Under the pieces are notes generated by a model that was given only the letters and a program-made list of their open reading frames with translations, did not search any database and was not told where the DNA came from. A stretch of 64,000 nt of DNA, taken from the NCBI GenBank assembly GCA_017546175.1, contig JAFYXM010000007.1, positions 62,001 through 126,000 of the forward strand, given 5' to 3'. A program made the translations under genes and the position numbers. Shown here in pieces: positions 53,556 through 57,128 of the stretch (positions are counted from its first letter, which is position 1; each line of letters opens with the position of its first letter). Origin of the DNA: Elusimicrobiaceae bacterium (GTDB taxonomy: Bacteria > Elusimicrobiota > Elusimicrobia > Elusimicrobiales > Elusimicrobiaceae).

Positions 53556-54523
53556 AAAGTTTAATTAAGCCTTTAGCTGTCGGTTCTTTTACGGCTCCCA
53601 ATAATGTATGGCTGGCTCCGATGGCAGGTATCACGGACGGGCCTTTTCGGGCTTTATGTTTGCGCGGCGGTGCGGGGGTGGTCTGCGCGGAAATGGTGTC
53701 TGCGCACGCGCTTCATTACGAAAATCCGCGCAGTTTGCGTATGCTTTCTATCAGTGAGCGTGAGAAACCCGTTTCTATGCAAATTTTTGGCTCTGATGAG
53801 CAAACTATTGCGGAAGCCGCCCGCGCCGCTGAAGCACGCGGAGCCGACATTATTGATATCAATGCAGGCTGCCCTGTGAAAAAAATCAATCGTGCCGGGG
53901 CAGGGTGCGTGCTGATGAAAGACCCTGTTCACTTGGGCCGTTTGGTAGCGGCGGCGGTAAAAGCGGTCAAAGTGCCTGTTACCTTAAAAACACGAATTTC
54001 TTTAAAACGCGGTAAATTGTTAGGGGACGAAATTGCCAAAATTGCCGAGAGCGAGGGCGCGGCGGCTGTACTCATGCATGCGCGCGCGGCAGAAGACGTG
54101 CACGCAGGAGAGCCTGATTTGGACGCTTTGGCCAAAGTGTGTGCTAGTGTCAAAATTCCTGTATTGGGTAACGGTGGAATAGACGGTGCGGCCAAGGCCC
54201 AACAATTTTTTGATGCGGGGTGTGCGGGGCTTTTAATCGGGCGTGCTGCCGTGGGAAACCCGTATCTTTTTCGCGATATTGCCCAAGAATTGGCAGGAGA
54301 AAAACCCCAACCGTTAGACAATCAGCGACGTACGGAAATTTATTTGGCGCTTATTGAAGAAAACATTGCCCATTACGGTGAAAAAATAGGTGTGGGCCGC
54401 AGTAAAAAAACGGCAGGATACTGGCTGCGCGGCTTTCCCAACGCGGCCGAAGTGCGCGGAAAATTTGTCCGTATGGAAAAATTGTCCGATATTAAATCTC
54501 TTTTTTCTTCTCTTACTTTTTAA
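53552..54523 (+). CDS. dus: tRNA-dihydrouridine synthase
   Basis: This FMN-dependent enzyme reduces uridines in tRNA D-loops. It shows the FMN-binding barrel start WLAPMAGITDGPFR, the catalytic Cys in NAGCPVKKI near residue 108, MHARAAEDVHAG in place of the usual HxRxxxQxY, and GNGGIDGAAKAQQF and LIGRAAVGNPYLF near the end of the barrel. It belongs to the DusB-like group by these motifs. Length is 323. It overlaps paralogue 3 by 4 bases and is convergent (4-base overlap) with the pilin gene. Confidence 0.93.
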   Translation: MKSLIKPLAVGSFTAPNNVWLAPMAGITDGPFRALCLRGGAGVVCAEMVSAHALHYENPRSLRMLSISEREKPVSMQIFGSDEQTIAEAARAAEARGADIIDINAGCPVKKINRAGAGCVLMKDPVHLGRLVAAAVKAVKVPVTLKTRISLKRGKLLGDEIAKIAESEGAAAVLMHARAAEDVHAGEPDLDALAKVCASVKIPVLGNGGIDGAAKAQQFFDAGCAGLLIGRAAVGNPYLFRDIAQELAGEKPQPLDNQRRTEIYLALIEENIAHYGEKIGVGRSKKTAGYWLRGFPNAAEVRGKFVRMEKLSDIKSLFSSLTF

Positions 54524-54993
54524 ATTTCCCCGTCGTAATACTGCCAACCTTGATTTTCTAAAGATTTGCAAATATAACGGCCAATATCGGTTAGTTGGGT
54601 AATACATCTGCGTTCCCAATTTCCTTGCGGAGAGCTTTTTGCTGCCACAAAAGCATAGTCTCCATTGTTCCGATAATGTTCTGTCACACACCTTTCAGAA
54701 TTACAGTCTCCTGCGTATGAAAAGTTTTTTGTGATGTAATCAGGATCTTCCCAAGTGCCGCCTGTAAGTTCTGCTAATTCTGCCGCATGTGTAGCTTGAG
54801 ACGGAAATCCCCCATTTTCTAACAAACATAAATCCAACGCATTTTCAATAGCTTTATTGTTAGATAAAAATTCAGTTAGGCGGGCTTTTTCTACCGCTTT
54901 GGTGTATTGCGGTAAAGCCACAGCAGATAAAATTCCGATAATGAGCACTACCACCAAGAGTTCTATCAAGGTAAACCCTGTTTTATTTTTCAT
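54520..54993 (-). CDS. Type IV pilin-like prepilin (157 aa), copy 1
   Basis: I start at ATG 54993, where AGGAG sits upstream. The leader KNKTG is followed by FTLIELLVVVLIIGILSAVA, the class III signal: PilD cleaves after the Gly and methylates Phe1, and Glu5 is present. The helix continues to ALPQYTKAVEKARLTEF. The globular part has four or more cysteines (CLLEN, GDCNSERCV, ERRCI) that can form D-loop disulfides. Length suggests a minor or major pilin or a type II secretion pseudopilin; no assembly genes are in the window. The leader contains the structured RNA described separately. Confidence 0.88.
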   Translation of the reverse strand: MKNKTGFTLIELLVVVLIIGILSAVALPQYTKAVEKARLTEFLSNNKAIENALDLCLLENGGFPSQATHAAELAELTGGTWEDPDYITKNFSYAGDCNSERCVTEHYRNNGDYAFVAAKSSPQGNWERRCITQLTDIGRYICKSLENQGWQYYDGEI

Positions 54994-55039
54994 ATATTTT
55001 CTCCTTTTCAAAAATACAAGTTTTCGATTTTGGACCATG

Positions 55040-55250
55040 AAAAAACGGCCGTCTTATTACGGAGCTAATCCCAGTCCCGCACATAAAACAGCCGTAGTAT
55101 CGCACACGAGGTGCGATACATTGGGCAGAACATATCGGGCTCATGACTTCCCAATACATTCTGCCTAAACAGGCTGTTTTTGGACGGGATTAGCGCGTTG
55201 TTTCCAACGACTTCCTATTCTTCATAGGATTCCAAAAACAGAAAAATTGT
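55040..55250 (-). ncRNA. Structured RNA candidate upstream of pilin copy 1 (possible riboregulator)
   Basis: The minus-strand RNA folds into a closed, branched structure. From outside inward: GCTAATCCC with GGGATTAGC (9 bp) plus GTCC/GGAC; then AAAACAGCC/GGCTGTTTT (9 bp); then a three-way junction with a long hairpin (GGCAGAA/TTCTGCC, tandem G-U, TATTGGG/CCCGATA) and a second hairpin GTATCGCAC/GTGCGATAC. Two small hairpins precede it (TCCTAT/ATAGGA, CGTTG-GAAA-CAACG). It ends CCGT/ACGG then CCGTTTTTT, 36 bases before the end of the pilin leader's SD region. Three wobble pairs form only on the minus strand. No tmRNA, RNase P, SRP or 6S signature was recognised. Confidence 0.65.
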
Positions 55251-55256
55251 ATTCTT

Positions 55257-55286
55257 ATTATGCCATAAATGCTAAAATACAAGCAA
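55257..55286 (-). promoter_or_regulatory. Promoter of the structured RNA
   Basis: On the minus strand TTGCTT (55286-55281), an 18-nt spacer and CATAAT (55262-55257) predict transcription starting near 55250, at the 5' edge of the folded region. Confidence 0.5.
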
Positions 55287-55336
55287 GAAAGATTTTTCTC
55301 TTTTTATCTCTATACCAAACTTCCCTGTAAATTTGC

Positions 55337-56330: not shown

Positions 56331-56520
56331 TTTATAACGGTTTTTTTCGGTTGTTTGTTACTGGTGTGCAAACAATTTTGCATTTTTAGATTTCTTTGAA
56401 GGGCTTAGCACTCGCCGTAGCTAACACTACTTGCCTCGGGTAACTTACGGAACAAATAATTCCCAAAACTGAAAAATCATGCTACAAACAAGTTGTTTTT
56501 CCGTCGGGGAGAAAATAAAA
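56331..56520 (+). other. Non-coding region with inverted repeats upstream of pilin copy 2
   Basis: No gene is seen. TTGTTTG (56351-56357) pairs with CAAACAA (56369-56375). CCGTA (56415-56419) pairs with TACGG (56446-56450). GGAA with TTCC follows at about 56449-56463, and a short AACA/TGTT hairpin before TTTTT sits near 56490. This could be a second folded RNA ahead of a pilin gene, but the stems are short and no wobble evidence fixes a strand. Confidence 0.3.
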
Positions 56521-56522
56521 AC

Positions 56523-56553
56523 TTGACAAACCGTTTTTTTTTTTTACTACGAT
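56523..56553 (+). promoter_or_regulatory. Pilin copy 2 promoter with a 12-T spacer tract
   Basis: A perfect TTGACA (56523-56528) is followed by a spacer containing 12 consecutive T (56534-56545), then TACTAC (16-nt spacer) or TACGAT (19-nt spacer) as the -10. The tract length sets the -35/-10 distance. Confidence 0.6.
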
Positions 56554-56591
56554 TTTTTCAGACGGAAAAAATAGCAAAAAGGAGAATAAAA

Positions 56592-57128
56592 ATGAAAAGA
56601 GGTTTTACTTTGATAGAACTGTTAGTCGTGGTGTTAATCATCGGTATTTTGTCTGCGGTAGCGTTGCCGCAGTATAGAAAGGCAGTATTTAAAGCAAAAT
56701 TAACGGAAATGAATGTTATTTTAAACGCCTATCAAAAAGGTCTTACTTCTTATTTGTTGGCTAATGGCGGTTATCCCGGCACAACTACATATTTTAGCGG
56801 AACGAATGATTCCGGTGCGTTAGATATAGAAATGCCGGCTACGGGAAAAAGCACTTCTTATTCGTGCAATGGTAAATTAAATTGGTATGTTTATTGTGGG
56901 GCAAGCTCTTGCAGTATTGGTATGGGAATGGCTAAAGCAAAAGGGGCCGATTGTAGCACAGCGGCTGACACATGGAACGGAGAGATACGTAGTACGACTA
57001 CTGATGCAGGAAAAACATGGGTTTTAACGGATAGTATCTATAAAACTACTCCACAATGGCAAAAAGAAATAGTTTGTCAGTGGGCTAAAAGCATAGATGA
57101 AAACTATAGTGGAACGACTTGCAGATAA
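56592..57128 (+). CDS. Type IV pilin-like prepilin (178 aa), copy 2
   Basis: ATG 56592 has AAAAGGAGAA upstream and begins with a KRG leader followed by FTLIELLVVVLIIGILSAVA and ALPQYRKAVFKAKLTEMN, as in copy 1. Processing after Gly with methyl-Phe1 and Glu5 is expected. The rest is different from copy 1 apart from general size: Ser/Thr/Gly-rich with cysteines in YSCNGKLNWYVYCG and SSCSIG. The shared N-terminal helix suggests both subunits enter the same fibre. Transcription likely starts at the 12-T promoter, and a terminator follows directly. Confidence 0.88.
   Translation: MKRGFTLIELLVVVLIIGILSAVALPQYRKAVFKAKLTEMNVILNAYQKGLTSYLLANGGYPGTTTYFSGTNDSGALDIEMPATGKSTSYSCNGKLNWYVYCGASSCSIGMGMAKAKGADCSTAADTWNGEIRSTTTDAGKTWVLTDSIYKTTPQWQKEIVCQWAKSIDENYSGTTCR

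Follow-up and report, generated by a model that had tools for sequence, protein, structure and literature searches.

An interval between two divergent genes of an Elusimicrobiaceae bacterium, of which rplM on the plus strand encodes ribosomal protein L13 and the other a type IV pilin-like protein, raises the question of whether an RNA is encoded there and, if so, what it does. The interval lies in a stretch of 64,000 nucleotides (GenBank assembly GCA_017546175.1, contig JAFYXM010000007.1, positions 62,001 to 126,000), which is called the window here and supplies all coordinates. An earlier note, made from the letters of the DNA, had claimed an undescribed structured RNA on the minus strand, either a pilin riboregulator with an aptamer and a terminator or an independent small RNA. 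The downstream gene (54520–54993, minus strand) encodes a protein of 157 amino acids (Pfam N_methyl, E 1e-8) and is preceded by a Shine–Dalgarno sequence, AAAAGGAG (55001–55008, minus strand).

A structured RNA on the pilin-sense strand

The minus strand of the interval encodes a structured RNA. A full-length covariance model, R2, matches positions 55040–55251 (164 bits, E 1.4e-40), with the 3′ end of the match in a U-run. The minus strand folds at −101.5, compared with −64.9 ± 4.6 for dinucleotide shuffles (z −7.96, 0 of 200), and the plus strand likewise folds well (z −7.5), so that the strand cannot be assigned by energy alone. Among 73 relatives, G-U cells far outnumber A-C cells in the stems designated P3 (132:36), P4 (50:5), and C:D (166:14), and the RNA is therefore assigned to the pilin-sense strand. 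The earlier note had argued for the minus strand from G-U pairs and had listed a pair of small hairpins, the long hairpin P3 with at least three G-U pairs, and the 9-bp hairpin P4; the argument holds across the relatives and the hairpins are all present. Its statement that the RNA matches none of the common families likewise agrees with the database scans: at the Rfam 15 gathering score the whole window yields two tRNAs only and no match on the element, and a permissive Rfam 15 scan of four family copies gave no credible match on it.

A covarying fold with a docked terminator loop

Covariation was assessed in an alignment of 73 sequences, A6, whose rows were picked for five common P3 loop palindromes. 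The fold best supported by this alignment consists of a stem, A:B, around two hairpins and a single strand (P1, P2, and J), followed by the hairpins P3 and P4 and an intrinsic terminator formed by the stem C:D and the U-run, the loop L of which pairs with J in a pseudoknot of about 10 bp. All parts lie on the minus strand. Strand A (CUGUUUUUGGA, 55231–55241) pairs with strand B (UCCAAAAACAG, 55174–55184) in 97.8% of cells. The enclosed hairpins P1 (55213–55229) and P2 (55196–55209) show covariation at all five and all six counted pairs, respectively. P3 (55124–55165) covaries at 16 of 16 counted pairs and P4 (55097–55119), 96.9% paired, at eight of eight. Strand C (ACGGCUGUUUUAU, 55083–55095) and strand D (AUAAGACGGCCGU, 55045–55057) form the 5′ and 3′ arms of the terminator hairpin, which also covaries (95.4% paired); the U-run (55040–55045) follows CCGU in nearly all family copies. 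Conserved nucleotides are found at the junction (GUUUUAGG, CCgArUGU, and ACyACGG).

Taken together, A:B, P1, P2, P3, P4, C:D, and the J:L pseudoknot are paired in 89.4% of cells as opposed to 75.0% after shuffling, with 811 double changes against 276. The covariation score of 0.465 (0.210 shuffled), judged by shuffles and slid versions only, is reached in 0 of 500 shuffles and compares with at most 0.147 for the slid versions. Compensatory change in the stems, the very check by which the earlier note had proposed to refute itself, is thus strong. Strand J (GCUAAUCCCG, 55185–55194) and the terminator loop strand L (GGGAUUAGC, 55064–55072) differ between nearly all copies, and their pairing covaries at all nine counted pairs, in all four Watson–Crick types. 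Uninterrupted J:L runs have a median of 10 bp in cognate combinations but a mean of 5.4 in non-cognate ones; in another, distant family of this phylum the cognate median is 11 bp.

The earlier note had drawn a different arrangement. Its nested stems, GCUAAUCCC with GGGAUUAGC and CAGCC with GGCUG, do exist, but nested as drawn they make up a competing state rather than the best-supported fold. The GC-rich stem that it placed before the U-run is not short: the 5′ arm is strand C, which the note had assigned to the junction stem. Since both use strand C, the fold drawn there and the terminator are mutually exclusive. The minimum free energy structure of the elements is the state with A:B and C:D; the nested state (B:C with J:L) is on average 9.5 ± 7.4 kcal/mol less stable, before J:L is credited to the A:B and C:D state.

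An alternative pairing and a likely switch

The 3′ end of B and the bases next to it can alternatively pair with C, and this B:C pairing is complementary in 99.5% of cells in the 73 sequences. Changes within it are restricted to C or U opposite G; its covariation is mostly one-sided, by way of G-U pairs, and weaker than that of the supported fold. All three sequences in which CUG of the C strand has become CUA carry matching changes in both B and D, and two of the three also in A. In the distant family, 10 of 30 copies retain only 4 bp of B:C, and in a sister class of the RNA (see below) the complementarity is kept in a different sequence, as read by eye from the alignment. Strands A and C hardly vary, while their partner strands drift through G-U pairs. 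Such behavior would be expected if a strand had several partners to pair with, and other causes may also account for it.

Because C can pair with B or with D but never with both at once, formation of B:C would leave D free, and no terminator would form. From the alignment, B:C and C:D are likely the two states of a switch, which resembles a transcription attenuator with "off" as its default setting. Averaging about 10 kcal/mol, and with the J:L contribution on top, the energy gap between the states may exceed what a two-state switch can overcome without kinetic control.

Palindromic P3 loops and putative dimerization

The loop of P3 at the window locus contains the palindromic hexamer UCAUGA (55141–55146). 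As the A6 rows were chosen by their P3 palindromes, loop statistics were not drawn from them; loops were counted in the alignments A7, A8, and A9, which had been assembled without regard to the loops, most of A9 having been gathered by scanning for the pattern of strands A and B. A 6-nt palindrome occurs in 139 of 220 P3 loops (30 expected from shuffled loops), a count obtained with alignments made by R2, which was itself built from the palindrome-selected A6 and could bias which copies align well. P4 loops contain such a palindrome in 17 cases against 28 expected. The P3 palindromes comprise at least five common different ones, UAAUUA, UUAUAA, UCAUGA, UUCGAA, and UUGCAA, in addition to rarer ones; self-complementarity is thus kept while the loop sequence changes.

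The dimerization initiation site of HIV-1 presents a stem-closed loop of about 9 nt with a central 6-nt palindrome. The P3 loop ACUAAUUAC is likewise a loop of about 9 nt with a central 6-nt palindrome; the viral site serves genome packaging, whereas many different palindromes occur here within one bacterial family. Loops changing among self-complementary sequences are also known from GOLLD, ROOL, and OLE RNAs: in a cryo-EM study of OLE and GOLLD published in 2025, changes from GGCC to GAUC or AGCU were interpreted as kissing-loop contacts that join identical chains symmetrically (PMC12286853). Those RNAs are much larger, are not terminator leaders, and have no sequence match to the element, for which dimerization is putative. 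Because co-changing neighboring loop bases cannot pair within one chain, and in view of this precedent, we infer homodimerization through P3 kissing loops. Dimerization is also a plausible trigger of the switch, and a link between P3 dimerization and termination is offered here as a guess. More specifically, leaders might sense their own copies, terminated or nascent leaders with the same palindrome dimerizing through P3 and the dimer setting the choice between terminator and antiterminator, a proposal that we consider improbable as it stands.

A multi-copy family in Elusimicrobiota

Searching the DNA of the genome to which the window belongs returned relatives of the element, three of which were used to build a first covariance model, covering the 5′ domain. 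This model finds seven copies in the genome, the same seven being strong matches to full-length R2, and places the family in 55 of 61 genomes of the genus. Copy number ranges from 0 to at least 123 per genome, the latter in G084, where 150 of 213 candidates were scored; another genome, G065, holds 45. To our knowledge, 123 or more leader copies in one 1.7-Mb genome is exceptional. Across the phylum, 85 of 341 genomes carry the family, in two genera of the window's own family and four genera of the distant one, which has up to 25 copies per genome with R2. Named records among the matches listed are almost all metagenome-assembled genomes of gut, rumen, and similar Elusimicrobia. No match to the element was obtained by blastn among phage and plasmid records. 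A first scan of viral contigs gave six hits to the A:B inverted repeat only, with no convincing full-length match, and a second gave seven unconfirmed hits; none of the pattern-scan hits in non-Elusimicrobiota genomes was confirmed. No paper describing the RNA family was found among those searched, and the family is apparently undescribed.

At the window locus, the terminator (C:D and U-run) precedes the start codon of a gene on its own strand; the run of six T that the earlier note had seen ahead of the pilin gene is present, 46 nt before the ATG (54991–54993). Among 95 distinct sampled copies, 62 have a pilin N-terminus next on the same strand, with a median of 38 nt from terminator to ATG. 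The other 33 mostly precede outer-membrane-, lipoprotein-, glycosyltransferase-, methyltransferase-like, or other genes, the genes downstream of most copies having been named from N-terminal sequence only. Some class-1 copies lie 100–500 nt from the next open reading frame, which speaks against a cis leader. The RNA of the earlier note is directly before a pilin gene and ends in a terminator, as claimed, but it is not specific to pilins and is a multi-copy family rather than a single RNA. N_methyl pilins number from 22 to more than 112 per genome (75 in the window's own genome), so that most pilins have no such leader; a tie between RNA number and pilin number was rejected, one genome (G070) having 106 pilins and one RNA.

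Several loci have features of their own. Copies before glycosyltransferase-like genes (L039, L071, L081, L046, and similar) are farther from the open reading frame, and in some of them the element is followed by another hairpin resembling a terminator. In the pilin reading frames of L049, L056, L105, and L125, the start codon is separated from the pilin signal by additional sequence, e.g., VILNLIQDLRCCLLWLLVNNVRGRCQIKFGMTS, apparently a repeat element inserted in frame. A second pilin gene in the window, just beyond rpsI (56493–57128, plus strand), is without a copy of the RNA; its leader is of another kind, in which arms of TTTTTCCGTC...GACGGAAAAA precede the Shine–Dalgarno sequence.

Mobility and a sister class

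In relatives with 98–99% identical L13, the whole stretch 54531–55331, which holds pilin gene, RNA, and promoter region, is absent between dus and rplM (loci L280, L281, and L297; genomes G025, G033, and G023). Since it is missing entire, RNA and pilin gene came or went as one unit. A strong RNA match is present at only two of 30 rplM loci.

In relatives, R2 also gives weak hits downstream of rpsI, and these represent a sister class, with the plan A:B (enclosing P1, P2, and J), hairpin, and terminator, and with J:L pairing; a single hairpin replaces P3 and P4. Seventeen genomes carry the class, usually as a pair, but a search of the window's own genome did not find it; the sequence that follows shows no evident target gene. 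Examples are L283:2006-2175:+, L284:804-972:-, L288:237-393:- and 803-967:-, and L285:495-652:-. The copies, often two in tandem, share the conserved hairpin GUAA....UUAC, and their terminator loop pairs upstream. L293:2614-2839:+ appears to be a decayed copy in which the 5′ domain alone is recognizable.

Flanking signals: start-site pairings and a candidate promoter

Two further pairings may act between terminator and start codon. Pilin loci contain, between terminator and Shine–Dalgarno sequence, a second copy of B that is complementary to A (motif E), with at least 10 pairs to A in 20 of 92 pilin loci compared with two of 145 in the control (Fisher test). At 95 pilin loci, complementarity between the U-run region and the start-codon region scores 19.0 for cognate and 14.5 ± 3.5 for mismatched combinations; in the window, the U-run with the adjoining CAU (55037–55045, minus strand) can form a start-codon hairpin, UUUUUCAU standing opposite AUGAAAAA. 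Both pairings may add translational control in read-through transcripts.

The promoter-like boxes described in the earlier note exist as a candidate promoter (55257–55286, minus strand) with a −35 sequence TTGCTT (55281–55286), an 18-nt spacer, and a −10 sequence CATAAT (55257–55262), but a consensus promoter scan gave no more matches than shuffles do, for which reason an own promoter is only plausible. TATAAT-like boxes lie upstream of 118 of 166 family elements (85 expected). About 75 of the 166 (including L002, L013, L041, and L071) have a small hairpin directly 5′ of the element, often after GTACC, where a clear TATAAT box would be.

Proposed mechanism and rival explanations

The element probably represents a new family of leader RNAs that act in cis as transcription attenuators. 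As sequence and covariation show, every copy is able to adopt a ground state in which A:B encloses P1, P2, and J, and C:D forms the intrinsic terminator with its loop L docked on J by about 10 bp; by default, RNA polymerase would halt at the U-run before the pilin start codon and the gene would be off. In the second state, the 3′ part of B would pair with C, closing the junction around P3 and P4 and freeing D. Some signal stabilizing B:C would then allow read-through, and in pilin copies the pairing of U-run and start codon would further restrain translation. The likeliest trigger would be a contact that the palindromic P3 loop makes with another RNA, or else a ligand bound by the conserved junction. 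Intrinsic-terminator attenuators and riboswitch platforms such as those of purine and SAM-I riboswitches are similar in that one strand, here C, joins either an upstream stem or the terminator, and in the conserved junction above that stem. Unlike in those systems, the terminator loop is docked to an upstream strand, an extra stem, A:B, competes for B, loops are palindromic, the copies per genome far exceed any that we know of for riboswitches, and no ligand is known. In T-box leaders, as outlined in PMC7583486, an RNA–RNA contact with the leader sets terminator versus antiterminator. The putative contact proposed here would be of that kind, but the Rfam scans gave no T-box match on the element and no tRNA-like specifier was identified.

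A narrower version of the attenuator, a riboswitch for a metabolite or second messenger in which the P3/P4 nucleotides and B:C form the aptamer and the terminator is the expression platform, would account for the conserved junction nucleotides, the position of B:C where a switching stem would be, and the surface genes among the targets. Riboswitches for c-di-GMP (GEMM) occur before pilin genes and are thus comparable as leaders, but they differ in architecture and Rfam gives no match here. This version seems doubtful: any ligand is putative, the variation of the P3 loop resembles an RNA–RNA contact, strands with two partners also explain the conserved nucleotides, and no Rfam riboswitch matches. 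A strong terminator, a plausible own promoter, and the palindromic loops would also suit an independent small RNA that acts in trans on other RNAs, perhaps as a P3 homodimer, and merely happens to be sited before pilin genes. The sister class, which lies downstream of rpsI singly or as two copies in tandem and apparently has no target gene, is poorly fitted by a purely cis role and is in line with such an RNA. Nonetheless, the location of 62 of 95 copies a few tens of nucleotides before pilin start codons, the pairing or resemblance by which U-run and motif E relate in cis to the start-site region and to strand A, and the movement of RNA and pilin as a single unit make it unlikely, and the cis leader is favored.

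That single insertion or deletion at the window locus, together with the copy-number range and with A and B as inverted repeats that E repeats once more, could also betoken a mobile cassette whose structured end, attC-like or MITE-like, serves DNA movement and folds as RNA only as a by-product. We regard this as very unlikely given that the excess of G-U over A-C on one strand points to selection on RNA, that J and L vary between almost all copies, and that the terminator and its spacing to the Shine–Dalgarno sequence are conserved. Intergenic repeats often fold well, yet a chance fold or ordinary repeat is refuted by the shuffles, none of which matches the observed covariation, and by conservation in two families of the phylum; its probability is negligible.

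If P3 dimerization controls termination, the leader would be a natural small RNA–RNA quaternary switch, and if leaders do sense their own copies, dozens of pilin and surface genes of one loop class would control each other by RNA alone. No account of how the pilin repertoires of gut Elusimicrobia are controlled was found in the literature searched, and for these very large repertoires the RNA family provides a concrete, testable regulator.
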